From Betaproteobacteria bacterium HGW-Betaproteobacteria-9 (lineage in GTDB: Bacteria > Pseudomonadota > Gammaproteobacteria > Burkholderiales > Burkholderiaceae_C): a stretch of 64,000 bases of DNA. Made by a program: the position numbers and the translations under genes. The first letter of the stretch is position 1, and every line of letters begins with the position of its first letter. The DNA is taken from positions 78,238 through 142,237 of the forward strand of contig PHCC01000001.1 in assembly GCA_002842215.1 (NCBI GenBank). The letters are read 5' to 3'. Below, piece by piece: positions 5,984 through 31,455 of this stretch. The notes beneath the pieces were generated by a model that saw only the letters and a list, made by a program, of their open reading frames with translations, was not told where the DNA came from and ran no database searches.

Positions 5984-6060
5984 CTGCCCGTAGCTCAACC
6001 GGATAGAGCAGCTGCCTTCTAAGCAGCAGGTCGGGGGTTCGAGTCCCTCCGGGTAGACCA
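5984..6060 (+). tRNA. tRNA-Arg (anticodon TCT), integration target of the element
   Basis: The acceptor arm CTGCCCG pairs with CGGGTAG, with a G-T wobble at the third pair. The anticodon stem GCTGC/GCAGC encloses CTTCTAA, giving anticodon TCT. The T loop is TTCGAGT, the discriminator base is A, and CCA is encoded. The 3' half from 6014 is repeated at 31416-31455. There the continuation reads CGGGCAGGCCA, which would restore a perfect acceptor stem and a G discriminator. The tRNA therefore appears to be a hybrid whose last bases were supplied by the integrated element (see findings). Confidence 0.95.
6014..6053. repeat. attL core, 40-bp direct repeat (left copy)
   Basis: It runs from the anticodon loop through the T arm of tRNA-Arg and is identical to 31416-31455. 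The two copies diverge immediately after CCTCCGGG: TAGACCA on the left and CAGGCCA on the right. Confidence 0.93.
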
Positions 6061-6138
6061 ATAAACCCAGTTTTTTCAAGGCACAGAACGACAGCACTCA
6101 CTAACATTTTCTTCAAAAAACGAGGAAATGAGTATTTG

Positions 6139-6222
6139 AGTGTCCCTGCAGTGTCCCGGTTTCGCACCTTTTCGCAGCGCTTCGCACTTGCCAAAACGCG
6201 CTTAGCGTCCCCGTGGTGTCCC
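6139..6222 (+). repeat. probable integrase arm-type sites, left end
   Basis: AGTGTCCC occurs at 6139-6146 and again at 6150-6157, an 11-bp step, with a third related copy GGTGTCCC at 6215-6222. The same pair with the same 11-bp step is found at the right end (31334-31352). Direct repeats at this distance from the crossover core are typical of tyrosine-integrase arm sites. Confidence 0.6.
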
Positions 6223-6223
6223 G

Positions 6224-6251
6224 TTGACCAGCCTGTTTGATCTGGTTTAAT
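6224..6251 (+). promoter_or_regulatory. strong sigma-70-like promoter at the element's left end
   Basis: -35 TTGACC (6224-6229), a 16-bp spacer and -10 TTTAAT (6246-6251) each match five of six consensus bases. Transcription would start near 6258, leaving a leader of about 140 nt before the AlpA-like gene. The leader contains several short inverted repeats, such as AAGGGT/ACCCTT near 6263-6280 and GCTGGG/CCCAGC near 6333-6355. Confidence 0.6.
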
Positions 6252-6397
6252 GTGCTGTCGTGAAGGGTTGTGGGACCCTTCTCGCGCTCCGAGGTAGAGG
6301 CCCTGATCTCGGTGAAATGAAGTGCACGTGTGCTGGGTAACGAGGCCTCCCAGCGCTCGTCGCCTCGTCTGGACCTCGCTTTTATCGAGCGAGCAAG

Positions 6398-6730
6398 ATG
6401 AGCACGTCAGTACGTGATGAAACCCACTCCCTGCCTGAGAACCAACAGGCGCTTCTGAAAAAAATCCTGTGGGACGCCTATGACATGGCCGAATTTCTCG
6501 GTCTGTCGGTCCACAGCATCAGGCGCGTCGTGCATGCGCCTCCCGTTGGATTTCCGACTGCCCTCTTTTTGGGAGGCAAATGGATCTGGAGGTCTGTAGA
6601 GGTCCAACGTTGGGCTGATGGTGAATACATCCAACCCTACACACCACCTCCTGCCGCCGCTCCCCCTGCGCTGACCCTGCGCGGCCGAGGTCGGCCGCGC
6701 AGGACGCTTGAAGTTTTGGCCGGCTCCTGA
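6398..6730 (+). CDS. AlpA-like winged-helix protein, probable excisionase
   Basis: A 110-aa protein. A MerR/AlpA-type helix-turn-helix is visible at about residues 26-75 (WDAYDMAEFLGLSVHSIRR, then GGKWIWRSVEVQRWADG), followed by a Pro/Arg-rich tail. Small proteins of this type are commonly recombination directionality factors of tyrosine-integrase elements, or regulators of them. It lies first in the element, 345 bp inside attL, downstream of a strong promoter, and 14 bp before the trfA-like gene. The pair could therefore couple excision to replication. The DNA-binding fold is well supported; the excision role is inference. Confidence 0.7.
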   Translation: MSTSVRDETHSLPENQQALLKKILWDAYDMAEFLGLSVHSIRRVVHAPPVGFPTALFLGGKWIWRSVEVQRWADGEYIQPYTPPPAAAPPALTLRGRGRPRRTLEVLAGS

Positions 6731-6744
6731 CCGAGGAGCCCGCA

Positions 6745-7647
6745 ATGACTTCAACAATGAAACTTGCGGCAGACCTAGCCAGGTCCGCACTTTCCAACCC
6801 CAGAGGAACCGGGCAAATCGACCGGATACAGCGCAACGCCTACTTGAATGGCAAGGGAATCAAACCGACCGGCCAGTTTCAGCTTGACCTGATCTTTCCC
6901 GACACGATGGGCGACCGCGAAGACATGCGGCACATCCCCAACGACTACGCACGCTCCTCAATCTTCACGGCTCGCAACAAGCGAGAGCCGCGCCGGACGC
7001 TGATGCACGAAAAGCTGTTCCACTACAACGAACATGTCTCCATCCTCTACACCGGCATCGAGCTGCGCGCGGAGGACGATGAAATCGTGTGGCTGCAGAT
7101 CCTTAAGTATGGCGAGAGCGTTCCACTTGGCGAACCGTTCGAGTTCGGAGTCAAAGATTTATTGCGTGCGGTGGATTGGTCGAAAAATGGCCGCAACTAC
7201 GACCGCGCCCGCGAGTGCATCACGCGGTTGAAGGCCAACGAAGTGTTGGCCCTCAACACAAAGGCATACGGCAAGAGCGGTGCAACCTCGTTGATCCAGA
7301 ACTACACGACAGTCAACGACGCCGAAGGAAAGCCGACGCAATACCGAGTTTGGATGGACCCCAACTTGATCGTTCTGTTTGCTGGCAACACCTTCACCAG
7401 CCATTCTTGGGAGGTGTACCGCGACCTGTCCCCCGTGGCACGTCGCTTGGCCGATTACATCGAGAGCCACCGGCACCCCTACCCGCTGGCCGCCGAGAAG
7501 TTCCGGCAAATGTGCGGATCGATGGACAGCAACGCGCGGAGCTGGCGGCAAACCGTCAAGAAAGCCTGCTCCGAGGTTCAGGAAGCCAAGATTGCCGCCC
7601 TCGTCACACTCGACGGCAAAGACCAAATCTGCTGTGTGCGTGAATAG
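6745..7647 (+). CDS. trfA: TrfA-family plasmid replication initiator
   Basis: A 300-aa protein matching the TrfA family of IncP-type plasmid initiators. The conserved block RHIPNDYARSSIFTARNKR (residues about 55-75) is followed by YTGIELRAEDDEIVWLQIL, the FGVKDLLRAVDWSKNGRNYD region, and the second winged-helix segment LSPVARRLADYIESH. Such proteins bind iterons and open the origin with DnaA. The start is supported by a GAGGAG-type Shine-Dalgarno about 10 bp upstream. The iteron cluster lies immediately downstream (7813-8096), so the element carries a plasmid-type replicon although it is integrated. Length is near that of the shorter TrfA form. Confidence 0.88.
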   Translation: MTSTMKLAADLARSALSNPRGTGQIDRIQRNAYLNGKGIKPTGQFQLDLIFPDTMGDREDMRHIPNDYARSSIFTARNKREPRRTLMHEKLFHYNEHVSILYTGIELRAEDDEIVWLQILKYGESVPLGEPFEFGVKDLLRAVDWSKNGRNYDRARECITRLKANEVLALNTKAYGKSGATSLIQNYTTVNDAEGKPTQYRVWMDPNLIVLFAGNTFTSHSWEVYRDLSPVARRLADYIESHRHPYPLAAEKFRQMCGSMDSNARSWRQTVKKACSEVQEAKIAALVTLDGKDQICCVRE

Positions 7648-7661
7648 GCCACCGCAGCACC

Positions 7662-7817
7662 ATGCACAAAACAATGGGCGTTTGCACGCCCATTGGCATC
7701 TTCAAAGTGCAGGCCAAACGCTACGACTTGGCCAGCACCGGCCGCGCCGGTAACCTGGCCAGGCCCACCGCCCGCTATCGGGAGCGCATTTATCCACAGA
7801 TCACTGGTCGATCGTGA
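7662..7817 (+). CDS. possible 51-aa small ORF between trfA and the iterons
   Basis: ATG 7662 to TGA 7817 encodes a basic 51-aa peptide with ordinary-looking composition (MGVCTPIGIFKVQAKRYD internally). It has no clear ribosome binding site. It is preceded by a strong hairpin CAATGGGCG/CGCCCATTG (7672-7695) that overlaps its 5' end, and its stop codon lies inside the first iteron. It may be spurious. Confidence 0.22.
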   Translation: MHKTMGVCTPIGIFKVQAKRYDLASTGRAGNLARPTARYRERIYPQITGRS

Positions 7818-8135
7818 CGGATGACCTGCACCCCGTGACGGATGACCTGCAGCGGTTTTGCAAAGTGCAGGCCATCCGTCACGATTTCGCCTCCTCCCGG
7901 ACAGAGTGAAGGCGCAATTGTGGATAACTTGCTGCCGCGAAATTTTCCGAGCCACCACAAGAGCGGAAGCCATGACCAATGACCTGCGCTTCGTGACGGA
8001 TGACCTACGGCAAGTGCTGAAAATCCACCTTTCACGTGACGGATGACCTGCAAAATCGTGATGGATGACCGATGTTTTCGTGACGGATGACCTATCCACA
8101 GTTTTTGCAAGTTATTGATATAGAAAAGAAAATCG
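7790..8135. other. plasmid-type replication origin (oriV)
   Basis: The interval has a perfect DnaA box TTATCCACA at 7790-7798, a second perfect box on the minus strand at 7919-7927 (TGTGGATAA), a one-mismatch box at 8092-8100, seven 18-bp iterons, and an A/T-rich stretch at 8101-8135 suitable for melting. It lies directly downstream of the trfA-like initiator gene, as in iteron plasmids. Confidence 0.8.
7813..8096. repeat. iteron cluster, seven copies of an 18-bp repeat
   Basis: The consensus is CGTGACGGATGACCTGCA. Copies on the plus strand are at 7813-7830, 7834-7851, 7992-8009, 8035-8052, 8057-8074 (degenerate) and 8079-8096; an inverted copy is at 7866-7883. Spacing within the two subclusters is 21-22 bp, about two helical turns. 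A weaker partial copy (TGACCAATGACCTGCG) is seen near 7973. Confidence 0.88.
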
Positions 8136-8194
8136 TCAAACGCATGCAGCGCTAACCGTTTTCTTAACCCTCCTTTAACCAAAGAGGGTTGTTG

Positions 8195-8500: not shown

Positions 8501-8504
8501 GGAC

Positions 8505-8663: not shown

Positions 8664-8749
8664 GACTGGCTCCTTCATGTTTCATGACGCTTCACGTTAC
8701 CAGCCTGGCCAAACCGGCGCAAAGGCGATCTTCAATCACCGGCCCTGTT

Positions 8750-8770: not shown

Positions 8771-8806
8771 ACGTTACGATGCTACGATCAATCAAAAGGA
8801 GAAGCC

Positions 8807-9430
8807 ATGCAGCAAGTAGTCACTCAACAAGCGGTGGACGCCGCCGCTGACGCCATCGTCGCCGCGGGCGGCAAGCCGACCTTCCGGCTCATCAACCAGC
8901 GGGTCGGTGGGTCGTTCACCACGCTCAAGCCGATGCTGGCCAACTGGGAGGAGCGCCGGGGGAAAGGTGCTGAAGCAGTGATCGAGGTGCCCGATGCACT
9001 TCTGGCGCGCGGTGCCGACCTGGTGCGCGGGATCTTCGCGGAGGTGGCCCAGCAGGCACGGGTGGAATCGGAGGCTGTTCGCAAGGATGCGGAAGCCCGC
9101 GTCACTGAGGTACGAGCTGAGCTGAGCGAGGCCACCGAGGAGATCGCACGCCTGGAAGCCCAGGATCTCGCCAAAGCAGCCGAGCTTTCGTCACTGCGGG
9201 ACGAGCACAAGACGCTGGAGCTGCTGGCGGCCGGGCTCAAAGAACGCGCCGCCCTGGCGGCACGCTTGGAGTCGGAGCTGCGTGACGCACGCGCAGCTCT
9301 GGCCAAGAGCGAGCAGCAGGTCACCGACCTTCAAGCTCAGTTGGTCAAGGCTGGGGATGTGCAGAAGCTGCTGAGCAACCTGGAGGCCCGCCTGGGAACT
9401 GCCGGCGTAGTGCCGAAGGGGAAGATGTAG
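8807..9430 (+). CDS. KfrA-like DNA-binding coiled-coil protein
   Basis: A 207-aa protein. The N-terminal KfrA-type DNA-binding domain covers about residues 1-65 (VDAAADAIVAAGGKPTFRLINQ, then GGSFTTLKPMLANW). It is followed by a long alanine/glutamate-rich coiled coil to about residue 190. KfrA of IncP plasmids is a repressor and an accessory to partition and stable inheritance. The perfect palindrome at 8750-8770 is the likely operator. An AAAGGAG Shine-Dalgarno precedes the ATG. No ParA or ParB gene is nearby, so it may work alone as a stability or nucleoid-like factor. Confidence 0.82.
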   Translation: MQQVVTQQAVDAAADAIVAAGGKPTFRLINQRVGGSFTTLKPMLANWEERRGKGAEAVIEVPDALLARGADLVRGIFAEVAQQARVESEAVRKDAEARVTEVRAELSEATEEIARLEAQDLAKAAELSSLRDEHKTLELLAAGLKERAALAARLESELRDARAALAKSEQQVTDLQAQLVKAGDVQKLLSNLEARLGTAGVVPKGKM

Positions 9431-11535: not shown

Positions 11536-13209
11536 TCACCCCTTGAGCATCGCGAAAAGCACCAGCACGGCAACGATCCAAACCCATCCAGGTATGCGCC
11601 ATTCGGTGTCCTTCTTCACTCCACCATGTGAGTGTTGTGGTGTCATAGAGGGCGTTTGAACACGAGATGCAGCACTCCTCGAACTTGGCGCGGTGCCGCC
11701 GCCTGCAGATTGTTTGCGCATGTCCGCAAGCACCTGCTGATTTCGAGAGAGGTTTGCCACCGGCGCCGCGGCCGGCGCAGCAGCAGGCCCTCTGACCGGT
11801 GCGCCCTTACCTTTCATCTGCCCCAGCAGGTCTGAATTTGAAGCAGCGCTTGAACGACCTTTGCGTGGAGCCTTGAGACGGAATTGAGCCTCCGCCTCAG
11901 TTAACTGCACGATCTGTGACAGCGAAGCTGCGGACACGGAAATGTGTTGATAGTTGAACTTGGGATTTCGATATATCGGCTCCACCAGCCCTTTGATCGT
12001 CACCCACCGACCCACCCATGAAGCACTCGGCGTAACGCCACCTTTGGCCAAGGCGTCACTCCAGATATTGATCTTGACGCAGGGTCCATTCCAGGGTGCG
12101 AAGTTGATGAACACGAATGACTTGCCCTTGCCTTTGCCGTGTTTGCCAAACATCTGTTTGACCTCGACAATGCACCCAACCAGCTCCACCATCTGCCCTA
12201 TGTGCGCAGAGAACGAACTGAAGTTGGATGCATCAAGCACAGGGTACTGACTGATGTAGCCTATTGGTCCTTGTGGCGCGGCGCCATCGGAACGAGGGAC
12301 AAAAATCTCCTGCGGGATGTTCTTGGCGCTCAGAAAATCGGTGAGCGAGGGGACCTGTTTGTAGGCCGCGCGACAGATCGACGCGAAGTTCTTGACATCG
12401 TTCGCAAGCGACGGAATCTTTTCAATGGCAGCAAACACCGCTGACGCACCAGGGTCCGCATAGTCATTGGCACGAAACACGATGACGCCAGCACCGCTGC
12501 TGGAGCTACCCCACAGCGACGGCCGCTCACACAACCCCCGCAGCGCCAGATTTAACGCAATGAACGAGAACCGATCCAGTGTGTTGTCAAACTGGCTTGC
12601 ATCGCGGCGCGGATGTTGGTAGTCCCGATGCCCCATCTCAGAGCTTCCAAGCGATGCGATCTCGGGTACGAACATGCCGTCGTAGTCGATCAACTGAACG
12701 CGCCGCCCGCTGTCGGCCACCATCAGATTGCCTTCCTGGATGTCGCCATGCGCGATCCCTTGTTGTTCCAGGTATGAGGACAACGTACCCAGGGAATTCA
12801 GTAGATTGGTGAGCTTGGCTCTGTCACCATGGTTCGTCTCTACGAACTCGCCCAGGGTTTCTCCCGAAGCCCAGGCCATCTTGACCAATGGATATGTTGC
12901 CCCGTTGAGCCTCACCCCCTGGGCCTGAAACTCGAATTCCACAAAGTGAGGGGAAGCTAGGATCTTGAGCTTTTTCGAGATCGCCGCATACCGGCTTTCA
13001 AGGCCCTTTGCCTCACGGTGAAAGCACCGAACAGCCTTTTTGGTGGTCCCAACTTCCACTGCGTACGTCAACGCAAAGCCACCGGAGACCACCACGGGAA
13101 GGCCGAGGCCCGACGAGTGGATCTTTCCAGCTTTCAGCTGAGGATCGAGAAAGACCGTATCCGGGTGTTGCAACGCCTCCTGATACTGCTCAAGCGTGGG
13201 ATAGTTCAT
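11536..13209 (-). CDS. YegI-like protein kinase with OB-fold and C-terminal membrane anchor
   Basis: A 557-aa protein. The kinase domain covers roughly residues 30-300, with catalytic loop HGDIQEGNLMV near residue 153 and IDYDGMF in place of DFG near residue 174. A region at about 330-440 (QMVELVGCIVEVKQMFGKHG, then FVFINFAPWNGPCVKINIW) looks like an OB-fold nucleic-acid or metal-response domain. A disordered Ala/Ser/Pro linker and one C-terminal transmembrane helix (IPGWVWIVAVLVLFAML) complete it. The start overlaps the phosphatase stop by 4 bp (ATGA). E. coli has a comparable yegI-pphC-yegL set. It probably phosphorylates a partner that the adjacent PP2C dephosphorylates; the target is unknown. 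Confidence 0.82.
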   Translation of the reverse strand: MNYPTLEQYQEALQHPDTVFLDPQLKAGKIHSSGLGLPVVVSGGFALTYAVEVGTTKKAVRCFHREAKGLESRYAAISKKLKILASPHFVEFEFQAQGVRLNGATYPLVKMAWASGETLGEFVETNHGDRAKLTNLLNSLGTLSSYLEQQGIAHGDIQEGNLMVADSGRRVQLIDYDGMFVPEIASLGSSEMGHRDYQHPRRDASQFDNTLDRFSFIALNLALRGLCERPSLWGSSSSGAGVIVFRANDYADPGASAVFAAIEKIPSLANDVKNFASICRAAYKQVPSLTDFLSAKNIPQEIFVPRSDGAAPQGPIGYISQYPVLDASNFSSFSAHIGQMVELVGCIVEVKQMFGKHGKGKGKSFVFINFAPWNGPCVKINIWSDALAKGGVTPSASWVGRWVTIKGLVEPIYRNPKFNYQHISVSAASLSQIVQLTEAEAQFRLKAPRKGRSSAASNSDLLGQMKGKGAPVRGPAAAPAAAPVANLSRNQQVLADMRKQSAGGGTAPSSRSAASRVQTPSMTPQHSHGGVKKDTEWRIPGWVWIVAVLVLFAMLKG

Positions 13210-13934
13210 GTTGGCAGCTCCGACGTTTCAGCCTCCACGGCGATGCGCAGAACAGTCGAGTCGTCCAGTCGCATACGTCGGGTCTGACGCTGCTCAACAA
13301 CCAATTGCGTGAACTCCTCAGCCATCGAAACGGCCAACAGCTTCGGTAGTTCTTCGGGATGGGACAGCAACCAGTGACCAACTGCGTCGGTCACCAAAAG
13401 AATGGCATCACCAATCTGCACATCCCAGGTGATGTTGTTACCCGCAAAAAAGCCTTGCTCTCCGACGAAGGCATTTGCCGTGGCCAGCGTGGATAACAGC
13501 CGGGGGCGCGCATCAAACTCCTCTGGTCGTGCAAAGGGGAACGACGACAAAATCACGCCATTGCGAACGTGTACAGCGAGGCTGTCACCAACCGCGAGCA
13601 CATCGATCGCGTGCCCATTGGATGCCAACTTGAGTCCAAGCAATGTGGCAAAGCTACCCCGCTCAAACGCTGCTTGTCGTGACCACGACAGGGAAGTGAT
13701 GTCGATGGACTCCAGGTAGGACCGTACTCTCCCTGCAACCCAATCCTCACCAACGCATTGGTCCTGCACATATGCAGCCGCCAGCAACCGTGCCCATGTT
13801 TGAGAATCGTATGACTCCGAAGCACCGTCGGTCAGGGCCACGCAGGACGTGCCTTCTGCATGGGCGTCTTCGTTCAGGTCCTGACGCTGCAGGTCTTTGG
13901 CAACCGATGCCGTCAGGTCAACTCTGAGTTGCAC
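13206..13934 (-). CDS. PP2C-family serine/threonine phosphatase (PphC-like)
   Basis: A 242-aa cytosolic phosphatase with a GTG start (13934-13932). Metal-binding motifs are in order: NEDAH and ALTDGASES near residues 21-40, FATLLGLKL near 94-102, VLAVGDSL near 112-119, ILLVTDAVGHWLL near 179, and LDDSTVLRI near 224. These aspartates hold the two Mn/Mg ions of the PP2C centre. It follows the VWA gene after 6 bp and overlaps the kinase gene by 4 bp, so all three are translated from one mRNA. By analogy with E. coli PphC it should counter the linked kinase. Confidence 0.86.
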   Translation of the reverse strand: MQLRVDLTASVAKDLQRQDLNEDAHAEGTSCVALTDGASESYDSQTWARLLAAAYVQDQCVGEDWVAGRVRSYLESIDITSLSWSRQAAFERGSFATLLGLKLASNGHAIDVLAVGDSLAVHVRNGVILSSFPFARPEEFDARPRLLSTLATANAFVGEQGFFAGNNITWDVQIGDAILLVTDAVGHWLLSHPEELPKLLAVSMAEEFTQLVVEQRQTRRMRLDDSTVLRIAVEAETSELPT

Positions 13935-13940
13935 TCGAAC

Positions 13941-14777
13941 TCACCGCAGTTGGGCAGGACGAGTACCGATGTCGAAGAAGTCAACGATCTCAGCAGCGTC
14001 GGCATTGAAAACGTAGCCGCGAGACTCGTTGGATACAGTGCGCCCCTTTTCTTGGGCGACTTTGATGAGATGTGGGGGTAGTGGACTGGACATCCGAAAC
14101 AGGAGCTTGGCGTACTGATCGGGCAATCCCGCGTCACTCGCCGGAAAGGAAATGGGTGTTGCCGCCAGCGCGCTGACGTGCAGGTTCAGCAACAGGATGT
14201 TTCCGTCGGTCGTCTGGAACTGTCGCAGGGAGTCGGCAAGTTGCTCCGGGTTGCCGTCTGTGGATTCACCATCAGTGATGTGCAGCACTGTGGGCGGGTA
14301 GCTGTTGGGGTGCGCATCGCACCACGATGCCAGCTCCTCAGCCGCTTTCGTGATGGCAGCGCACATGGGAGTGCCGCCACTGGCCTGCGGTTCAAACCAA
14401 ACGGGAAACTTCACCGTCTGCTCAACGATCCCACCTGCGCCATCATCGATCTTGCGCTTGCGCTCCTCCACCCGAAGGGGATTGGCCTCAATAGAGGAAA
14501 TTGGATTGAGGACTTGTTGGGCCAGTCCACCTTGCAGAGAGTTCTTGGCGCCGCCATCGCCATACCCGATCACACCAATATCGAAATAGTCCCGAATTCC
14601 GTCAGCCTTTTGGCATCGTGTCACCAACTGCATGAGCGTTTTGTTCAACACATCGGCGACGATCTGCGCTTTGGTCCGCTCTGAGTTGGCCATACGATCG
14701 CCCATGGAGCCAGACTGATCGACGAGAAACAAAAGAGCTGTGGGATCGCTCCGTTGAATTGGCGCTTGGTAAGGCAT
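13941..14777 (-). CDS. VWA-domain protein (TerY/YegL-like)
   Basis: A 278-aa cytosolic von Willebrand factor A protein. The metal-ion-dependent adhesion site is complete: DQSGSM near residue 20, the threonine of SGGTPMCAA near residue 133, and ITDGEST near residue 165. GGGAG and Trp/Phe-rich inserts fit the TerY/YegL group. A GGAG Shine-Dalgarno precedes the ATG. It is the first gene of the triad with the PP2C and kinase. TerY-P triads were predicted from comparative genomics to form phosphorylation-controlled stress or defence complexes; the function of this one is not established. Confidence 0.86.
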   Translation of the reverse strand: MPYQAPIQRSDPTALLFLVDQSGSMGDRMANSERTKAQIVADVLNKTLMQLVTRCQKADGIRDYFDIGVIGYGDGGAKNSLQGGLAQQVLNPISSIEANPLRVEERKRKIDDGAGGIVEQTVKFPVWFEPQASGGTPMCAAITKAAEELASWCDAHPNSYPPTVLHITDGESTDGNPEQLADSLRQFQTTDGNILLLNLHVSALAATPISFPASDAGLPDQYAKLLFRMSSPLPPHLIKVAQEKGRTVSNESRGYVFNADAAEIVDFFDIGTRPAQLR

Positions 14778-16312: not shown

Positions 16313-16828
16313 CTACTGGTTTGCCCGCCTGTTGCGAATCTCTGACCGATGGTCCCAGGGCGCTACGGGCGAAAGATCCCGCCACAGGCCGCGCCTGGCC
16401 AAACGAGCTTCCTGCTCGGCGTCAGAGTACAAGAGGCGATCGGCTGGCGATTGCTCGCCCTGGTATTGCTTGTAGTGCCAGGCCAAACCGGCGACCACCA
16501 TGGCAAGGTTTGCATCCCGACCGTCGATGATCACCTTGCCAACGGAGCGCCCGTAACGGTCCTTTTTCTCGGTTTCGACCGTGACTAGGCGGCCGAATAC
16601 AAGTGAAGACAGGTGTTCCTTGCTTCGATTGCCGAAGTCCTGGCGCTTCTCTGGTGCATCGATGCCGGCCAACCTGATTTTGTGCTGAGTGTGCTGTTCG
16701 TCGAGCACCGTGACAGTATCGCCGTCCGCGACCCCGACAACCTTTCCCTCCACGGTGCCGGCCAGGGCTATGCCAGCCCACACGACACTGACAAACGCAA
16801 GCCCTATGTGAGTCTTTAGCTGGCGCAT
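16313..16828 (-). CDS. secreted thermonuclease (SNase family)
   Basis: A 171-aa protein with a signal peptide (residues 1-23, ending AGIALAG). The staphylococcal-nuclease fold is marked by VVGVADGDTVTVLD (calcium-binding Asp), KIRLAGIDAPE (catalytic Arg, Asp), the Glu of the SKEHLSSLVFG region, and DRYGRSVGKV (second catalytic Arg). It should hydrolyse DNA or RNA in the periplasm or outside the cell. The start lies 3 bp after the lipoprotein stop. Similar nucleases are common on IncP-type plasmids and ICEs, where they may limit extracellular DNA uptake. Confidence 0.88.
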   Translation of the reverse strand: MRQLKTHIGLAFVSVVWAGIALAGTVEGKVVGVADGDTVTVLDEQHTQHKIRLAGIDAPEKRQDFGNRSKEHLSSLVFGRLVTVETEKKDRYGRSVGKVIIDGRDANLAMVVAGLAWHYKQYQGEQSPADRLLYSDAEQEARLARRGLWRDLSPVAPWDHRSEIRNRRANQ

Positions 16829-19402: not shown

Positions 19403-19474
19403 CCCACCATTATGGTCGCGTGTTGAAGTTTTTACATATCGATAACTGGATTTTGGATGATCTCTCCTACGCAT

Positions 19475-20717: not shown

Positions 20718-21299
20718 ATGAACACCACTTCCTACACGCGCCTGGCTGCGACGCTTATCGCAGCCTCCGCCCTCACCGCCTGCGGCGGTGGCGGAGACGA
20801 TGGATCGTCCGCACCTGCCATCGGCCAGAACGGCGCCGTGGACGTGAACACTGTCTCGATGCCCGCTGGCCAGACCTGCGGCATCGGCAACTTCGCGCCA
20901 GCGCTCCTCGCCGCGATCAACAGCGCGCGTGCGCAGGCCCGGACCTGCGGTGGTACGGCCTACCCAGCAGCGGCCCCTCTGGGCTGGAACTCCCTGCTCA
21001 CGCAGGCCGCTGTGCGACATTCTTCGGACATGGCCACCAAGGGGTTCTTCTCGCATAACGGTAGCGATGGCAGCAGCTACATCGACCGTATCAACGCCAC
21101 TGGCTATAACGACAATGGCCTGTCGGAGGTTCTGAACCTGTCCCAAGGCGGCGCATTCAGCATTGGACGCTCGATGAACTCGTGGCTGGCCAGTCCTGGA
21201 CATTGCGCTTCAATCATGGACCCGTCGTTCAACGAAATGGGCGGTGCGTGTGTTTCGTCGGGGAGCAAAGCGTACTTCACCGTGGACTTCGGCGGTTGA
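20718..21299 (+). CDS. CAP-domain (SCP/PR-1-like) lipoprotein
   Basis: A 193-aa lipoprotein. The lipobox LTAC (Cys22) is followed by a Gly/Asp linker. The CAP domain covers about residues 60-190: LLAAINSARAQARTCG, PLGWNSLLTQAAVRHSSDMA, GFFSHNGSDGSSYIDRI, ASPGHCASIMDPSFNEMGGA. The His of FFSHN and the GHC segment fit the conserved cavity of the family. Four cysteines may form two disulfides. CAP proteins are secreted and bind lipids or act as adhesins. A palindromic terminator follows directly. It is convergent with the adhesin-like gene and likely belongs to the same surface module. Confidence 0.85.
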   Translation: MNTTSYTRLAATLIAASALTACGGGGDDGSSAPAIGQNGAVDVNTVSMPAGQTCGIGNFAPALLAAINSARAQARTCGGTAYPAAAPLGWNSLLTQAAVRHSSDMATKGFFSHNGSDGSSYIDRINATGYNDNGLSEVLNLSQGGAFSIGRSMNSWLASPGHCASIMDPSFNEMGGACVSSGSKAYFTVDFGG

Positions 21300-21366: not shown

Positions 21367-22674
21367 TCAGCCAGTGCAAGACCAACTTGAGGTGATCATC
21401 CCCATGGGGTAGTAGCTGCCGCTCCAAACTCGAGACCAATTGCTGGCCGCAGTCCGCGCTGCCGCTGGAGCCGCTGATGGCAAGCTAGCATATTGTCGCA
21501 GCGTCCCACTGCAAGTGACGCTGCCCACATCTCGAATAGTTGAACCGTTGGCAACGCCAAGCTTGTAGGCGTTGCACCCACCGCCATTCCCTCCATTTGC
21601 AGCTTCACGACGACATGCTCGGAAGAACCACGTGGTGGTAGCAGGCGTGTCCGAGGTATTGCCGCCGCCCGTATTGCCACCGCCCGAAGCTGCCACCGCG
21701 CGCCAGGTGGCAGTCGTGGTTCCGGTCCCGCCCGGCCCGGTCACCGTGAACGTGCACGTCGAGCTGCGGCCGGCCGCAGATCCGCTGCCTTGGTTGTGGC
21801 TGGTGGTGTACCACCCGCTGTTGCTCGATGGCCGCGAGTCGGTGAAGTTCCATATCCCGGTGCACCGCCAGGTGATGTTGCCCGTCGCGTTCGTAGTCCT
21901 GGTACGAAGGCTCACGCGGGTGCTGCCCACTGTGACCGGCGAGTTCGTGAACTCCGCCTGCACCGTGGGTGCCGGCGTCGAGACTGTGGCTGTGGCGTTG
22001 AAGGAGACCTGGTAGTTCACGCTGCCGGCCGCATTTGCGGCCGTGATCGTGCATGCAGTGTTGCCGGCGCTGCCGGCCGCAACGGCGGGGAAAGTGTGGT
22101 CCTGGCCAGCATAGGCGATCAGGTTCGTCTGGTTGAACGGACTGATGGCCGCGTTCGTGCCCGAACAAGCCATCGTGAGGGTCGTGGGCGTGCTCAGGGG
22201 TGTCGCACTGGCTGTGTTGACCCTCAAGGTCACATTCGCCCCTTGAGAGAGCGTGGCAACCTGCACGCCGTTGACCGTGGCCCCCAAGGTGGGCGGCACC
22301 GGGCAGCGGCCGGGGATCGCATGCGTCGGGCCGGTCGGATTGACGTTGGTCACGTCGCACAGCAGATCCTGCGGATCGCGCACGCCTTTGAGGCCACCCT
22401 CGCGAGATCCGGGAATGATGTGGCAGCGCTCCGGGCTTCCAACGGCCATGGTCAGGCAGTACGGAGGAGGCCCGCACCAGAACATACCGTCGCTGGGACC
22501 GTCAGAGCTGGTGATCGGTCGAAGGCCGCCAGGAACGTTGCACCCATCTACGAGAGGGAGTTTTTGCATGCCCACCTTGTTGATGTCGTAGATGGGTTGA
22601 GCATGTCCAGAGGGAGCAGCCAGCGCCAGGAGGCTCGCAGCAAGGTAGCTGTATGCAGTGTTCGAGAGTTTCAT
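21367..22674 (-). CDS. secreted adhesin-like protein, last gene of the trb/pilin module
   Basis: A 435-aa exported protein with a signal peptide (residues 1-25, SLLALAAPSGHAQ). The mature part is Thr/Ser/Asn/Gly-rich with even numbers of Cys. Two or three repeats resemble bacterial Ig-like beta domains (ATLSQGANVTLRVNTASATP, and TVSTPAPTVQAEFTNSPVTV). A Gly/Asn linker follows and then a C-terminal domain with paired Cys. I do not recognise a family. It lies 23 bp after the prepilin gene on the same strand, so it is probably a pilus-tip or surface-binding partner. Confidence 0.65.
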   Translation of the reverse strand: MKLSNTAYSYLAASLLALAAPSGHAQPIYDINKVGMQKLPLVDGCNVPGGLRPITSSDGPSDGMFWCGPPPYCLTMAVGSPERCHIIPGSREGGLKGVRDPQDLLCDVTNVNPTGPTHAIPGRCPVPPTLGATVNGVQVATLSQGANVTLRVNTASATPLSTPTTLTMACSGTNAAISPFNQTNLIAYAGQDHTFPAVAAGSAGNTACTITAANAAGSVNYQVSFNATATVSTPAPTVQAEFTNSPVTVGSTRVSLRTRTTNATGNITWRCTGIWNFTDSRPSSNSGWYTTSHNQGSGSAAGRSSTCTFTVTGPGGTGTTTATWRAVAASGGGNTGGGNTSDTPATTTWFFRACRREAANGGNGGGCNAYKLGVANGSTIRDVGSVTCSGTLRQYASLPSAAPAAARTAASNWSRVWSGSYYPMGMITSSWSCTG

Positions 22675-22697: not shown

Positions 22698-23855
22698 TCA
22701 GGAAGCGGTACATGCAGTGAGGATCAGCGCCTTTGCGCCACCGCCAGCTTGAACACCGGTCGAACCGGTGATCGAGACAGTCCAAGTCGCAGGGTCAACA
22801 GACGCCTCAAAGCTGCCGGTGTTGTTGCCTGGGTTGTTCGCGCCGATCATTGCGCTCGCAGCCACGGTTGCCACCGTGGCCACTGGGGTCAATCCGATCC
22901 CGCAGGCAGGCCGATCGACAATGGCACCGTGCACGTAGTAGTTGCTCCCTTGGTACCCAAGGGTGAGGTGATCGCGCCACTGGCTGTTGATGCACATCAG
23001 CGAAGCACCGGCAGCGGTCACACCCATGGCCCCCTGCGTCACGCATGCCGTGCCTCCAACGACGATCTGACCTGAGTAGATGGTCCACACACCGTCGTTG
23101 CACAGAACGATCCCATTCGCAGCGGAAGCGAACGCACCCTGAGGGGTACAAGCCTCACCAGGTGTCTTGTGCGCGGTATCGAACTGGGTGCCGGTCACCG
23201 ATGGGCCGCGGAAGTCCGGATTTCTCGTGTCTCCGACACGAAGCCATGGTTCGCCGGCACCTCCCAGACCGTTGACCAGCACCACGATGCCTGGACGTGC
23301 TGCTGGATCAGGGTTCGCGATCACCCACGACCCCCCGCCACCGGAAATCGTCGCTGTGTTCGGTGGCCCGCTGAAAGAGGCGTTGGCGCTCGTGATGCGA
23401 GCCACCAGGGCGTTCAAGCGATCAGCCGGGACGGTCCCATCGGGATTCAGAATTGGAGCCACGGGCGACGTTCTGGACCATACCGTACACGGATCATTTG
23501 CAGGAGCCACACAGCCCACCGGACTGCGCGCGAGCGCAATGGAATAGTCGGCCGCAGACATGTTCACCGCTGGCGCCAGAAACCCCGCCACCTGCAACTC
23601 TGCGGTGGTCGGCGCGTAGGGGTCTGCGAACCCATCGACGGTGACTGGTTGAGCGCCCGTAAGGGTGGCCAGGTGGGTCGTGCGGTACAGCTCGACGGCA
23701 CGACCCAGCTCATTGAGAGAACCACCGATCGAGCGACCAGCCAGTTCATTGGCGGCGCGCACTCGCTGCTGCGCCAGTGACACCAGGATGATGGCCATTA
23801 CAGCCAACGCGATCGCCATTCCAGGCAGTGAGATACCCCGTTCGTTGATTTTCAT
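22698..23855 (-). CDS. PilV-like prepilin with large C-terminal domain
   Basis: A 385-aa protein. The N-terminus has a type IV prepilin leader: short charged leader ending ERG, then the hydrophobic helix ISLPGMAIALAVMAIILVSL. The usual Glu at +5 of the mature protein is absent. The helix continues with a pilin-like stalk (RAANELAGRSIGGSLNELGR). The long C-terminal region is Gly/Thr/Asn-rich with Cys pairs, as in the PilV minor pilins of conjugative thin pili, whose tips recognise recipient cells. No shufflon recombinase or repeats are seen nearby. It follows the trbJ-like gene by 9 bp. Confidence 0.72.
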   Translation of the reverse strand: MKINERGISLPGMAIALAVMAIILVSLAQQRVRAANELAGRSIGGSLNELGRAVELYRTTHLATLTGAQPVTVDGFADPYAPTTAELQVAGFLAPAVNMSAADYSIALARSPVGCVAPANDPCTVWSRTSPVAPILNPDGTVPADRLNALVARITSANASFSGPPNTATISGGGGSWVIANPDPAARPGIVVLVNGLGGAGEPWLRVGDTRNPDFRGPSVTGTQFDTAHKTPGEACTPQGAFASAANGIVLCNDGVWTIYSGQIVVGGTACVTQGAMGVTAAGASLMCINSQWRDHLTLGYQGSNYYVHGAIVDRPACGIGLTPVATVATVAASAMIGANNPGNNTGSFEASVDPATWTVSITGSTGVQAGGGAKALILTACTAS

Positions 23856-23864: not shown

Positions 23865-24635
23865 TTATTGGTTTTGGGAAGAATTTCCAACGTGATCAAG
23901 GACGTTGCCAAAGGTCGGCCCCTTGTTGGTTACAACGGTTGAATTGATTGCCCGCTTTTGCGCCTCTTGAACCTGCTTTTGCGCGAGAAGCCCTGCCTCA
24001 CGCTCACGATTGCGTGCAATGTGTTCTTGCGCAATGGTCTGATTCAAATCATTGAGGGCAGCGCCGAGCTGCGCATTCATTGAGGCAAGCGCCTGAAACC
24101 CCTGAACGTGGGTTGCGATGCCCTTGGCGTTGTTCATGGCGGATTTGAGCGACTGGGCACGTTCCTTCGCATTGGCCAGGACCTTCAAGTCGGCATCCAA
24201 CGCAAGCTTGTAAACACCGCCCTTCTTTTCCGCGAGATCCATGCGCAGCTTGAGATACTGCGCAGGGTTCTGCGCCAAGCGCTCCATCGTTTCCAGATCA
24301 CGCTCAACGGTGTCTTTGAGATCTTTGTATGCTGTCCTCGCTTCATTGAGGTTGTCAGCAATGGCCACTATCGCGTCCATGTCAACGCCCATTTCGCGCA
24401 AGACCGATTTCAGGGCTTCTGGCGAAAGCTGCTCAAGCTGGCGCTTGAGGTTCATGACCGTGTTGTAGGTGTTCGTGGTGGTCGCAATGGCTTCAACAAG
24501 ATCGGCGCTCAGCACACCGAAATTGGCATATTGAGTCCACTCAGTTGCACCCCATATCGCTGCCGCGTTGACAGGACCAATACAGATACCTTGGAGCGCA
24601 ACAGTAACCGCACAGGTTATGGCAAGTTTTTTCAT
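23865..24635 (-). CDS. trbJ: TrbJ-like (VirB5-type) conjugal transfer protein
   Basis: A 256-aa periplasmic protein starting at ATG 24635 with AGGGGAA upstream; longer upstream ORF sequence lacks a signal. A signal peptide ends VNAAA near residue 24. The mature protein begins IWGATEWTQYANF and is almost wholly helical (LVEAIATTTNTYNTVMNLKR, TYKDLKDTVERDLETM-like heptads). This start, the WTQxxN element and length match TrbJ of P-type T4SS. TrbJ/VirB5 sits at the pilus tip or base and contributes to recipient contact. It is followed by the prepilin gene and preceded by trbL. Confidence 0.78.
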   Translation of the reverse strand: MKKLAITCAVTVALQGICIGPVNAAAIWGATEWTQYANFGVLSADLVEAIATTTNTYNTVMNLKRQLEQLSPEALKSVLREMGVDMDAIVAIADNLNEARTAYKDLKDTVERDLETMERLAQNPAQYLKLRMDLAEKKGGVYKLALDADLKVLANAKERAQSLKSAMNNAKGIATHVQGFQALASMNAQLGAALNDLNQTIAQEHIARNREREAGLLAQKQVQEAQKRAINSTVVTNKGPTFGNVLDHVGNSSQNQ

Positions 24636-24651: not shown

Positions 24652-25785
24652 CTATTGATTCGTGCTGCCGGCACGATTTGAAATTGCAGCGCCAGTTGGT
24701 GCCGCAGTTTTGGTCTGCGATGCGCTGCCACCTTTTGAAGATCCGTCATTCTGTTTACCTCCAGATTTACTCGCCTTTCCGGCTGGTGACGCCTTCAGCT
24801 TCAGACTGCGCATGGCCGCCGCTGCCATTGCACCGCCGCCGCCTGCCCCACCCCCGCCAACAAGGCCCTGTGCGATGTCATCAACCTTCAGCAGCAAGAT
24901 GCAACCAAACACCAGAATCAGCGCGATTGATGCCCCCATGAAAATGGTCGCTAAGCCGATGCCTTGTGCATTCACCCCTGTTTTCAGCATCGTCTGAAAA
25001 ACCGGGAGCATTGCCGTGGCAAGGATGCTGGTTACCAAATAGGCAATGGCAAGGGTCAGCCCGGTTGTGATCATGAATCTGAGCCAGCTCGTAGCGAGCC
25101 AGGCCATAGGCGCGTAAGGAATGAAAGCAATGGCGAGGGGGCCGAAGATGATCCCGATCTTCATGATCAGTGCGTTCCCAAACAACACGCCCAGCAGCAA
25201 TGCAGAGAAAGCCGTCAATGGAATGATGATGATCAGTATCGCAATCGCAAGGGATACATAGAGCCGAATCACATCCATGAATGTCTTGAGCGTGATCGTG
25301 TCAAATAGGCTTTGCAGTGAAGCCATCATCCCGCCTTCCGACTCGCTGCATGGCTTTGCACCCGTCTCGATCCAGGCGGTCATTTCCCTGAACATTTCCG
25401 CAAATACCGCATAGAACTGCCCAATAGCTGACGCCGGGTCAGTGGATGCCGTCAGTTTGGAAATCACATCGCTCTTGAACCAGGCTGGAATAGCCTGCGA
25501 GGCAGCAGCCCAGTTATTCAACAGCGCCAGCGCTATCACGCCGAGGATCATGGCTCTGAAAACATCCGTAAGAACGGACTCAACACCACCGTTTCCCATC
25601 AGGTTCCGATAACCCGCTGTGACCGTCGCCGCAAGAAAGGAGAACGTCAGGAGTGTCATTCCGCTCCCAATCAGTGCTCCGCCCAGTGAATCGGCCTGCT
25701 TGAGGACTTGATCAGGAAAACCGCCGATGGCAACCAAGAAGGTATCCATCGCATCCGTGCTCGGATTACAAATTGCTGCAGCCAT
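24652..25785 (-). CDS. trbL: TrbL/VirB6-like type IV secretion channel protein
   Basis: A 377-aa polytopic inner-membrane protein. At least six hydrophobic helices can be read, including LLTFSFLAATVTAGY, AMILGVIALALLNNW, SLAIAILIIIIPLTAF, IIFGPLAIAFIPYAPMAWLA, TTGLTLAIAYLVTSILATAM and IFMGASIALILVFGCILLL. A Gly-rich and then Lys/Ser-rich cytosolic tail follows. This is the TrbL/VirB6 architecture: the inner-membrane channel component of conjugative T4SS. No VirB4, VirB8, VirB9, VirB10 or VirB11 homologue is present in the element, so this is an orphan channel subunit. Confidence 0.8.
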   Translation of the reverse strand: MAAAICNPSTDAMDTFLVAIGGFPDQVLKQADSLGGALIGSGMTLLTFSFLAATVTAGYRNLMGNGGVESVLTDVFRAMILGVIALALLNNWAAASQAIPAWFKSDVISKLTASTDPASAIGQFYAVFAEMFREMTAWIETGAKPCSESEGGMMASLQSLFDTITLKTFMDVIRLYVSLAIAILIIIIPLTAFSALLLGVLFGNALIMKIGIIFGPLAIAFIPYAPMAWLATSWLRFMITTGLTLAIAYLVTSILATAMLPVFQTMLKTGVNAQGIGLATIFMGASIALILVFGCILLLKVDDIAQGLVGGGGAGGGGAMAAAAMRSLKLKASPAGKASKSGGKQNDGSSKGGSASQTKTAAPTGAAISNRAGSTNQ

Positions 25786-25789: not shown

Positions 25790-26068
25790 TCACCCCAGCA
25801 CGAACTGAGTCAACTGCACCGCCAGCACCAGCAGACTGATGCTCGCCAATGGAAATCCGACATACACTGTGACTGGATCGACAATGATCATTTTCGCCAA
25901 AATCCACCGCATCATCAGCGGTCCAAATTTTCGAGTCGGACCGAGAACTTGTCTTCGTTCAGATTTGGGTGCGTCAATTAGCACCCTGAAACGGCGGAGC
26001 AGCGATTTTTTCTCAGTGATTGAGAGTTCCCGTGTTGCAATAAGAACACGCTCGGCAGGGGTCAACAT
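25790..26068 (-). CDS. small membrane protein at the head of the trb module
   Basis: A 92-aa protein starting at ATG 26068; the GGAG Shine-Dalgarno is partly inside an 18-bp hairpin. The N-terminal half is helical and charged (LIATRELSITEKKSLLRRF). Two hydrophobic helices follow (LMMRWILAKMIIVDPVTVYV and FPLASISLLVLAVQLTQFVL). It ends 4 bp before the trbL start, so it is almost certainly co-transcribed. I do not recognise the family; size and position recall small accessory pilin or channel-assembly proteins of T4SS. Confidence 0.6.
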   Translation of the reverse strand: MLTPAERVLIATRELSITEKKSLLRRFRVLIDAPKSERRQVLGPTRKFGPLMMRWILAKMIIVDPVTVYVGFPLASISLLVLAVQLTQFVLG

Positions 26069-26075
26069 ATAGGCT

Positions 26076-26114
26076 CCAATAAGGGTAAACATCCAAGATG
26101 TTTACCCTTATTGG
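26076..26114. promoter_or_regulatory. perfect 18-bp inverted repeat overlapping the ribosome binding site
   Basis: The arms CCAATAAGGGTAAACATC and their exact complement are separated by 3 nt. On the minus strand the distal arm ends TTGG, where the GG forms part of the GGAG Shine-Dalgarno of the gene starting at 26068. It can act as an RNA hairpin that hides the start, as a dimeric repressor operator, or as both. Confidence 0.7.
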
Positions 26115-27703: not shown

Positions 27704-27740
27704 AAACACCCGGTGGCCCCGAGGCTCCCGGGTGTTTTTA
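27704..27740 (+). terminator. rho-independent terminator after the RHH/HTH cassettes
   Basis: The stem AAACACCCGG / CCGGGTGTTT has a 14-nt loop and is followed by TT. Confidence 0.7.
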
Positions 27741-27791
27741 CGACTGACAACTGGTTTGACAACTAGGAAAAAGCTCTCGACACGCACAGCC

Positions 27792-28505: not shown

Positions 28506-28716
28506 ATGGCTCGCTCTATTTGGCGATGACCGCATGCACGAAATTGCCGCGCATTTGCTGACTTCCGACCAAATTAGGTCATCAAGAAGATGGAAAAAAT
28601 CATAGGATTTCGGATAGATACTATCCTTTGCTAGCTGCCCACGTGGATAGCCATGTCCATTGCAAAGGAAAATCCATGTCTCTCTCAACACAGACTGCGA
28701 CTTTTCAATAGAGCAT
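28506..28716. other. short noncoding gap between convergent cargo genes
   Basis: AT-rich, with no clear terminator, gene or repeat. Confidence 0.4.
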
Positions 28717-29691: not shown

Positions 29692-30146
29692 AACCCCTCC
29701 TTTTAAATCTATTTTTGACCCTACTGATCACAAAACAAACCCTCAATTAAATATTAAAATTCTGCATGCATCGAACAACAATAGAATTTATATTCCTGAG
29801 GGACAGATTTCAGAGCTTCTTTATCCACCGGCCTTGTCCAGCCTATCAGGCTCGAAGTTTTTGACGGCCTTCATGATAGAGAATGTCAAAACGCTACTCA
29901 TCCGAGTAAACAACTTGGTAACGCTCACATGATCGCACTATGAACGGCTTCTTGCCCACTCACAGCCCGAGTCCTCTTCACCGTTCTTAACGTTTGCACG
30001 CCTTACTAGCGCGAATGTGATCACAGACTCTATCCTGCCCCACCGTAGACGCCCGCACTTCACGTCAACTCGACCTCCATTACCTCCCGGAGTTTTGAAA
30101 CAGCCTGGTGACGCCCACACGTCGCCAGGCTTTTCTACGTGCCTGA
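29692..30146. other. noncoding interval between cargo and integrase
   Basis: AT-rich to about 29900, then mixed. The only structure seen is a hairpin at 30101-30136 (AGCCTGGTGACG / CGTCGCCAGGCT with one G-T pair), followed on the plus strand by TTTTCT. It lies just beyond the integrase stop and can terminate transcription into or out of the cargo region. Confidence 0.5.
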
Positions 30147-31301
30147 TCAGGCCAGCTTCGCGGCCAGATCCTCGGCACGAGGGTGGTAGTAGCGCGACAG
30201 CATTGAGCTGGTCTTGTGACCAGTGACCTTCATCAGCTCGTGCATCTGGAGCTTTTCAGCCAGGCGGCTGGTGGCCTCATGGCGAAGGTCGTGAAAATGC
30301 AGATCCACCAACATCCTGTCCTTTTTCTCCAGCTCAGCCAAGAGCTGGACAGTCCTGGCCAGTGGCTGGCGCTTCTTGAAGATCAACGCCCTGACCTCTC
30401 GAACTCCGTCGATCCCTTCGGCTTCCAGCTTTTTCACGAGCAGCCGGTGCAGATGCGACCTGCGAGCACTGACAAGTGCCCGATCCCACGACAGCCGAAG
30501 CGCGTTCTGACTGATCGGAAAGACACGCCCACCGTCTATGTGACGGGGAAGGCTGGACAGCACTTCCAGTGCGCGGGTTGACAGTGGCACATCTCTGAAA
30601 TCGTCACCGCCTTTCGTTTCTCTGCCCCCGACACCGCGAAGCCGCGCCACGCGCCGCCTGAGATCTACGTCAGCCCAGCTCATGCTGATCAACTCCGATT
30701 GCCGAGCAGCGGTCTCCAGGGCAAGAATGACCGCAGCACGAGGGTAGGTTTTGCCGGCGAGAGATTCGAGCAACTGAGACTCTTCCTGGCCTTCCAGCCG
30801 CCTTTCCCGAGCGTTGGACACCTTGGGCTTGCGCACCAAGGTTGTCGGGATGCCCTGGGGCAGCGCAATCCCCCAATCCAGTTGGCAGGCCTTGAGGACC
30901 CGAGTGATGAGGCCCAGCTCGTGGACCACCGTCTGCGGACTCACGACCTTCATGCGACTGTCCCGATACTCCGCCAGCATGGCAGGCGAGATGCCGGCGA
31001 GCGAATATCGACCAAACTGCTCACACAGCCGGTCGAGCATGTAGCGAGGTTGAACCTGTGCTCGTTTGGTCGGCAGCACCTCGCGCTTGTAGCGCTCGGC
31101 TGCTTCACGAAAAGTGGTCCGCTCGGCGTCATCGCGCTGGACAAACGCGCCCACGTCCATCTCCCGCTCGACAGCTCTTGCCCACGCCTCAGCGTCTGCC
31201 TTGCGATCGAAAGTCTTCGAGGCTGGTGGCCAGCCCTTGCGACGGACCTTCGCCTGCCACCGTTCACCGTTGTCAGTTTTGCGCTTTGTGATCACAGCCA
31301 T
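30147..31301 (-). CDS. int: tyrosine-type site-specific integrase
   Basis: A 384-aa phage-type integrase. The N-terminal arm-binding and core-binding domains cover residues 1-160 (FREAAERYKREVLPTKRAQV). Catalytic residues are Arg200 in ETAARQSELISMSW, Lys230, His337 and Arg340 in HFHDLRHEA, His362 in VTGHKTSS, and Tyr371 (or 372) in SRYYHP. An insertion of about 50 residues (roughly 280-333) separates the usual strand region from the HxxR box. The gene ends 1.27 kb inside attR and its start is about 115 bp from it. It should catalyse integration into and excision from tRNA-Arg. Confidence 0.95.
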   Translation of the reverse strand: MAVITKRKTDNGERWQAKVRRKGWPPASKTFDRKADAEAWARAVEREMDVGAFVQRDDAERTTFREAAERYKREVLPTKRAQVQPRYMLDRLCEQFGRYSLAGISPAMLAEYRDSRMKVVSPQTVVHELGLITRVLKACQLDWGIALPQGIPTTLVRKPKVSNARERRLEGQEESQLLESLAGKTYPRAAVILALETAARQSELISMSWADVDLRRRVARLRGVGGRETKGGDDFRDVPLSTRALEVLSSLPRHIDGGRVFPISQNALRLSWDRALVSARRSHLHRLLVKKLEAEGIDGVREVRALIFKKRQPLARTVQLLAELEKKDRMLVDLHFHDLRHEATSRLAEKLQMHELMKVTGHKTSSMLSRYYHPRAEDLAAKLA

Positions 31302-31333
31302 GGAGTGCTCCTGGCTGAAATTTTACAATGCGG

Positions 31334-31352
31334 ACTGTCCCCCAAGTGTCCC
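31334..31352 (+). repeat. probable integrase arm-type sites, right end
   Basis: ACTGTCCC at 31334-31341 and AGTGTCCC at 31345-31352 have the same 11-bp step as the pair at 6139-6157 and lie between the integrase start and attR. Confidence 0.6.
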
Positions 31353-31415
31353 CACTCTTTCCCTGCAAAGTTTTTTTTGCTTTTAAATCAACAACATAAT
31401 TTTGTTGTTTTTATA

Positions 31416-31455
31416 GCCTTCTAAGCAGCAGGTCGGGGGTTCGAGTCCCTCCGGG
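31416..31455. repeat. attR core, 40-bp direct repeat (right copy)
   Basis: Identical to 6014-6053. It is followed by CAGGCCA, the probable original 3' end of the host tRNA-Arg gene. Just before it is a hairpin-forming A/T stretch (ACAAC/GTTGT near 31391-31409). Confidence 0.93.

Follow-up and report, generated by a model that had tools for sequence, protein, structure and literature searches.

The window analysed here, a 64,000-nucleotide stretch of contig PHCC01000001.1 of Betaproteobacteria bacterium HGW-Betaproteobacteria-9, holds a 25.4-kb island in a tRNA-Arg gene that joins a plasmid-type replicon to four orphan conjugation genes. We read it as an integrative mobilizable element that remodels the mating machine of a helper with a TrbL, a TrbJ and a PilV-like adhesin of its own, and give this reading a probability of somewhat under 0.6. 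Several similar islands also retain no more than a few conjugation genes. This suggests that they move by altering the machine of another element.

Boundaries and replicon of the island

Two copies of the 3' end of tRNA-Arg (tct; 5984..6060, plus strand; ARAGORN and Rfam) flank the island, the attachment (att) repeats on the tRNA side (6014..6060, plus strand) and on the far side (31416..31462, plus strand) being identical at 45 of 47 positions, the first 40 of them without a mismatch, and the GC content is 0.568 in the island against 0.646 in the remaining window. An AlpA-like gene, trfA, iterons and a kfrA-like gene occupy the tRNA end, and a tyrosine integrase gene the far end (30147..31301, minus strand; PF00589 2e-20). 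The AlpA-like protein (6398..6730, plus strand), a helix-turn-helix regulator or candidate excisionase, has a weak match to HTH_17 that stays below the cut-off (0.004) and one to the excisionase/regulator family PHROG 66 (1e-5), and it is 44% identical to the gene in the same position of a second island in the same genome, on contig C18. TrfA, the replication initiator (6745..7647, plus strand; PF07042 1e-67), is 83.5% identical to TrfA of Nitrosomonas eutropha p1, a conjugative trb plasmid, and is followed by a putative iteron origin (7814..8093, no strand assigned) with seven copies of a 14-mer at no more than two mismatches, five of them exact; the exact 14-mer has no copy elsewhere in the 64 kb. 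The KfrA-like protein (8807..9430, plus strand; KfrA_N 2e-15) is 77% identical to a copy in Pseudomonas aeruginosa PA7. The 40-bp att repeats, integrase, AlpA-like gene, TrfA with iterons and KfrA-like gene had all been named in the initial annotation of the sequence, and re-analysis bears them out. TrfA with adjacent iterons points to a TrfA-type replicon. The integrase would excise the island from tRNA-Arg, with the AlpA-like protein as the likely excisionase or switch, and TrfA acting on the iterons would keep the excised circle replicating.

Orphan conjugation genes

The orphan block lies on the minus strand and encodes a TrbL (VirB6-like) membrane protein (24652..25785; PF04610 at 28.2 bits, cut-off 25.9), a TrbJ (VirB5-like) protein of 256 residues counted from an internal ATG at 24635 (23865..24635), a PilV-like prepilin or pilus-tip adhesin (22698..23855) and a secreted protein without a family match that looks adhesin-like by eye (21367..22674). 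All four are intact reading frames, trbJ follows trbL at a spacing of 16 bases with no trbK between them, and a 100-residue open reading frame (ORF) with a hydrophobic segment seen by eye lies immediately upstream of trbL (25790..26092, minus strand), while a CAP-domain gene adjoins the block on the plus strand. In the plasmid collection, TrbJ is nearest to an annotated TrbJ of Burkholderia MOBH plasmids, which combine genes of type T mating-pair formation (MPF_T) with a type IVb pilus and are not IncP (26% identity, 86% of the length, E 1e-8), and the PilV-like protein is likewise nearest to a PilV from a type IVb pilus operon rather than from IncP (29% over 70%, E 2e-19). Matches to the PilV-like protein occur in 3 of 399 genomes, its own included, the remaining two being partial, and none was found in viral contigs.

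A tblastn search of the island with trb, virB and type IVb pilus references (E 0.05) returned TrbJ and PilV only, to which a later reference set added TrbL, and with these reference proteins no traces of VirB4 or VirB8-11, of a coupling protein or of pilus assembly genes were detected; TraN and TraG of the F type (MPF_F) had no Pfam match among the 20 window proteins scanned. The earlier claim that the conjugation parts are limited to TrbJ, TrbL, the PilV-like and the adhesin-like protein is thereby confirmed. The statement that no HUH relaxase, coupling protein, VirB4 or VirB8-B11 is seen in the island also stands, but there is a non-HUH, MOB_C-like relaxase candidate at 18509-19474. With no VirB4, coupling protein or full mating-pair formation set detected, the island does not qualify as a complete integrative and conjugative element (ICE); an integrase with att repeats at a specific site and no complete mating-pair machine is the build of an integrative mobilizable element.

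The core secretion machine would be supplied by a helper conjugative element, for whose subunits the TrbL (VirB6-class pore), TrbJ (VirB5-class tip) and PilV-like adhesin of the island would substitute, and such a swap would alter the range of recipients open to entry, to which cells shut off by the entry exclusion of the helper might belong. A possible helper, judging by its gene content, is a VirB-type locus on contig C51 (L038) of the same genome, where Pfam identifies VirB4, VirB3 and VirB6, the first two being the only matches of the assembly, and where VirB8-, VirB9-, VirB10- and VirB11-like genes are recognized by similarity and a lytic-transglycosylase homologue is present; TrbJ/VirB5 and a coupling protein found no support at C51.

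Related islands

Siblings were sought at 13 loci with TrfA relatives (of which the tRNA scan omitted L050, L055, L056 and L061) and in genome surveys of evenly drawn samples, where TrfA was present in 17 of 399 and 13 of 369 genomes and TrbL in 22 of 399, always counting the window's own genome. The first TrfA survey yielded 18 places, seven of which combine a tRNA gene, an AlpA-like gene and TrfA (the window, C18, G082, G196, G212, G101 and G149, the last two of which reach contig ends and were left out of the set below), and the second 14 new places, none with a tRNA gene in the stretch examined. Besides the window and C51, 23 stretches were found through TrbL, 14 with and nine without a VirB4 match; of the nine, G150 proved to be an island with defined boundaries and G122 C31 to include further genes of a type IV secretion system (T4SS), and the others are G001, G295, G241, G246, G094, G391 and G067. 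Eight loci are compared here, namely the window, Methylophilaceae bacterium 11, G082, G150, G196, G212, C18 and a chromosomal locus of PA7.

Six of these are further tRNA islands with a homologous integrase and an AlpA-like gene, five of them with TrfA. Weak matches underlie the AlpA-like calls, except in the Methylophilaceae island and G196, where the position and look of the gene decided. Each of the 21 pairwise comparisons of the seven integrases gives a match at E 1e-5 or better, with 28-60% identity. The 29.9-kb island of Methylophilaceae bacterium 11, in tRNA-Leu with a 34-bp exact repeat and the integrase at its far end, carries an AlpA-like gene, TrfA, TrbJ and TrbL, TraL, a relaxase (PF03432 1e-10) and an SNase, and its TrbL is the sole PF04610 match of that genome. 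G082, in tRNA-Ser, holds an AlpA-like gene, TrfA, KfrA, TrbJ and TrbL, a TrwB-type coupling protein, a TrwC/MobF relaxase and the integrase, and no att repeat was found on its contig, which stops 68 bp past the integrase gene. G150 (14.2 kb, tRNA-Arg, 48-bp exact repeat) contains TrbJ and TrbL, a MobC relaxase, a coupling protein and the integrase, and its AlpA-like gene lies beside an ORF without a family match that may encode a replication protein of non-TrfA type. G196 (15.9 kb, tRNA-Met, 47-bp exact repeat) carries an AlpA-like gene, TrfA, TraN, a coupling protein, TraG and the integrase, and thus two of the three exchangeable subunits of SGI1, a mobilizable island discussed below; no relaxase was identified in it. 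G212 (tRNA-Arg, 48-bp exact repeat) has an AlpA-like gene, TrfA and the integrase; neither G212 nor C18 yielded a T4SS gene. The Pfam cut-off is passed by TrbL in the Methylophilaceae island, G082 and G150, by TraN and TraG_N in G196 and by DotA_TraY in PA7, and the TrbJ proteins match NCBIfam at 2e-28 (Methylophilaceae), 1e-7 (G082) and 3e-7 (G150), all under the curated cut-offs. In the Methylophilaceae island a 50-residue ORF with a lipobox (L059, 17239-17391), resembling a TrbK exclusion lipoprotein, adjoins trbJ.

The PA7 locus (L054, 13565-20476) has TrfA (75%) and KfrA (77%), DotA/TraY (6.5e-180), a MobQ relaxase and a TraD-like protein of 167 residues (PF06412 9e-7). No att repeat of at least 14 bp was found with either nearby tRNA gene, no ends were found, no AlpA-like gene was seen, and membership of its integrase in the sibling family is not established. 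Overall a VirB6-class, TraG or TraY protein is present in six of the eight loci, and TrbJ accompanies TrbL in all four MPF_T cases. No ORF of TraC size is listed in G196 between TrfA and the integrase, and among ten neighbouring or uncharacterized ORFs of G196, PA7 and further loci the TraD-like protein alone had a Pfam match of T4SS type. The initial annotation had made its proposal depend on the recurrence of TrbJ and TrbL without other trb genes, and this is what is seen in the three tRNA islands of Methylophilaceae bacterium 11, G082 and G150; since G196 furthermore has TraN and TraG, we can conclude that the reduced form recurs.

Comparison with known mobilizable islands

The best precedent is SGI1, the proven case of a subunit-replacing island, whose TraN, TraH and TraG replace those of the helper, the exchange of TraG disabling entry exclusion (PMC5389848). 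Like the window island, SGI1 is described there as integrated, not self-transmissible and equipped with a few exchangeable T4SS subunits, TraG among them, and it shares the order of HTH_17 gene, replication gene and iteron origin (PMC7433901, PMC8409611). TrfA replicons are furthermore reported in yicC-specific SGI1-like islands and in some Vibrio cholerae relatives of SGI1 (PMC8409611, PMC9035990). The window island differs from this family in its tRNA-Arg site, as opposed to trmE, dusA or yicC, and in having TrbJ, TrbL and PilV in place of TraN, TraH and TraG, and no helper is known for it.

GIsul2 and the IncP island, of Burkholderia glumae and Brucella suis, are unproven analogues which come closer in gene content: they are integrated islands with orphan TrbJ and TrbL, together with TrbK, and were proposed in 2017 to reshape the MPF_T apparatus of a helper, GIsul2 being described as lacking a relaxase and the IncP island as having a MobP relaxase (PMC5704250). 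They occupy guaA, use RepA or RepA/RepC and include TrbK, whereas the window island occupies tRNA-Arg, uses TrfA/KfrA, has no trbK between its two genes, lacks a MobP relaxase and adds PilV-like and adhesin-like genes. Nitrosomonas eutropha p1, IncP-like and with a full trb set, shares the TrfA replicon and the TrbJ/TrbL families, but the island showed no sign of VirB4/TrbE, of VirB8-11, of a coupling protein or of an HUH relaxase, and the island is likewise unlike the MOBH plasmid p48s4p, which by annotation has VirB8-11-like genes, TraD, MobH and pilus assembly genes. The proposal of the initial annotation, an SGI1-like strategy built on IncP-like TrbJ and TrbL, thus holds as to recurrence, but the strategy was already in print (PMC5704250) and the nearest TrbJ and PilV are not of IncP. 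What is new in the window is the tRNA site, the TrfA/KfrA replicon, trbL-trbJ without an intervening trbK, the PilV-like adhesin and perhaps a MOB_C relaxase. A group of tRNA-AlpA-TrfA islands with parts of several machine types appeared in no title or abstract found in the open-licence literature. If the remodelling reading is true, islands with homologous integrases and parts of different mating machines would represent a common route of competition for mobilizable islands.

Why these particular subunits are kept may be related to entry exclusion, of which TraG and TraY are donor-side partners and for which TrbK-type genes lie between trbJ/virB5 and trbL/virB6 (PMC8923210). Evasion of exclusion by way of TrbJ and TrbL is possible but unproven. 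A bolder version, which we regard as doubtful, is that the tRNA islands are general exclusion-evasion kits that have repeatedly captured TrbJ/TrbL from MPF_T, TraG from MPF_F or, by way of PA7, DotA/TraY from MPF_I systems, that is, just those subunits which are read by entry exclusion or lie beside exclusion genes, and that TrbL or TrbJ is the donor partner of IncP TrbK-type exclusion. The islands also point to TrbJ and TrbL in the very MPF_T systems for which PMC8923210, in its account of IncP TrbK, names no donor partner. The same source describes trbJ and trbL as essential for transfer, so that exchanging them could affect how the machine assembles or which recipients it reaches, with no part in exclusion.

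Candidate relaxase and origin of transfer

Transfer would start at an origin of transfer (oriT) of the island itself, maybe with a MOB_C-like relaxase acting at the adjoining hairpin-rich region. The candidate, an ORF of 321 residues (18509..19474, minus strand), is laid out like MOB_C relaxases of the CloDF13 type, with a winged-helix-like part followed by PD and an EVERTPKS-type motif, in the order H...PD...E[VT]ER.K. A composite pattern, composed post hoc after inspecting both MobC and this ORF, occurs in 1.13 million open-frame residues only in seven MobC references, one G150 protein and the ORF itself, and the G150 protein was then named MobC by NCBIfam (4e-79). The noncoding stretch upstream of the ORF (19475..20400, no strand assigned), an oriT candidate by position only, contains a 19-bp perfect inverted repeat (19649-19694) and folds with a z score of -6.8 for 221 bases, none of 200 shuffled sequences being equally stable. 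Relaxase and oriT may thus be taken as leads. Two imperfect direct repeat pairs, of 95 and 37 nucleotides, lie directly 3' of the ORF (17943-18409).

The alternative closest to our own is that the island has no relaxase, that the 321-residue ORF is something else and that a helper-type oriT is served by the helper relaxase, and this is a serious possibility, if short of even odds. The ORF has no NCBIfam match to MobC (NF041423), PF13814 does not match at 18509-19474, and BLASTP gives no support; against a MobC profile of our own it scores E 4.7, where ten other sequences from the decoy set do better, and once the G150 protein is added E 0.48, with three sequences better. Searches of plasmids (by tblastn) and viral contigs returned no relatives, the single genome with a match among 300 of the order is its own, comparison with solved structures gave one chance-level match, and an AlphaFold model, computed from the single sequence without relatives, is poor (mean pLDDT 39.7) and lends no support to a relaxase. 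On the other hand, the post hoc motif is confined to the eight MobC proteins and this ORF, and in two plasmids the gene after mobC encodes a thermonuclease; the SNase gene of the window lies three genes after the ORF.

Decay, capture and other explanations

It is also conceivable, though in our view unlikely, that the island is a decayed ICE or integrated conjugative plasmid in which TrbJ, TrbL and PilV are functionless leftovers. This would agree with a TrfA closely related to the one on a conjugative trb plasmid, with the trb operons that adjoin the TrfA relatives L050, L052 and L057, and with a stretch at 26.1-27.7 kb without a clear gene. Yet the four orphan genes are intact, the rest of a machine, from VirB4 and VirB8-11 to coupling protein and pilus assembly, has left no detected trace beside them, and TrbJ with TrbL recurs in three islands with differing relaxase types. 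Furthermore, these proteins do not form one clade: in trees with long branches the four orphan TrbJ group together in none of 200 bootstrap trees and the four orphan TrbL likewise in none of 200, a result that speaks against one ICE having decayed, and the well-supported branches of the TrbJ tree force at least two label changes. The outcome of the TrbJ tree is the same without the C51 row, the TrbJ proteins of Methylophilaceae bacterium 11 and Nitrosomonas p1 then being grouped at 99/98. Remnants would moreover be expected to differ from locus to locus, yet a VirB6-class, TraG or TraY protein is kept in six of the eight, which favours repeated capture. Repeated capture of the same pair would seem the better reading than decay of full machines, although this is not proof.

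A role of TrbJ, TrbL, PilV and the adhesin other than in transfer of the island, for example in attachment or in disturbing plasmids that arrive, is rather improbable. VirB5 and PilV are indeed tip or adhesion proteins, foreign subunits could poison a pore, and a candidate defence system is found among the cargo, but a relaxase is present at four of the five further loci that have parts of this kind (Methylophilaceae, G082, G150 and PA7, with none identified in G196), which points to transfer, and in SGI1 such parts act in transfer (PMC5389848). A phage origin is disfavoured, since functional phage matches were obtained for only two of ten proteins scanned with PHROG, the integrase and the AlpA-like protein.

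Several observations weigh against helper remodelling all the same. TrbL passes PF04610 only marginally and has no relatives in 72,556 plasmids or in a pattern scan of genome contigs, and TrbJ matches no TrbJ model, its identity being one of pairwise similarity. The PilV-like and adhesin-like genes are in no sibling island, and the exact TrbL-TrbJ-PilV-adhesin set is seen only in the window among the loci surveyed. Two of the eight loci have no T4SS part at all, so such parts are dispensable for the island build, and although VirB4 and VirB8-11 were found in none of the eight, the references used were of MPF_T type, those of the F or I type not having been applied to G196 and PA7. The TrbL tree requires at least one label change and does not by itself force more than one origin. 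The machine parts of C51 are not close to those of the island, no matched helper being known, and the 321-residue ORF fails every relaxase profile test. Finally, donor and recipient cells of pKPC_UVA01 are reported to use TrbK itself as the cognate factor (PMC8923210), and this action on both sides speaks against TrbJ and TrbL as exclusion targets.

Cargo genes and other loci of the genome

The candidate defence cargo is a TerY-P triad (11536..14777, minus strand) recognized by PADLOC, with adjacent genes for an STK_OB kinase (11536-13209, 8e-217), PP2C (13206-13934, 2e-77) and TerY (13941-14777, 2e-154). The SNase-like nuclease (16313..16828, minus strand; PF00565 2e-25) is 53% identical to the SNase that follows the relaxase gene of the Methylophilaceae island, and further cargo comprises a DUF4760 and a DUF4236 protein. 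For the CAP-domain protein (20718..21299, plus strand; PF00188 2e-17) a relationship to the CAP protein of a C. gilardii plasmid was considered and rejected, as BLASTP gave no match at 0.01.

The second island of the genome (L108 and L101, about C18:11936-27393) lies in tRNA-Asp with a 48-bp exact repeat and holds an AlpA-like gene, TrfA, type I restriction-like ORFs recognized by eye and an integrase 60% identical to that of the window. A 35.7-kb contig, C22 (L072:1325-11244), encodes a VirB6-like protein (PF04610 3e-46), NikA-like and LPD7-domain proteins and a TrwB-type coupling protein, and with the sole VirB4 match of the assembly at C51 it is perhaps another orphan-VirB6 island or else a contig cut short. 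Within the window, two uncharacterized genes lie near the integrase (27732-29691), the second where the island is richest in AT (28001-30000, 42-45% GC), and two 26-nucleotide inverted repeats (10547-10572 and 11181-11206), 96% complementary, are found 608 nucleotides apart.

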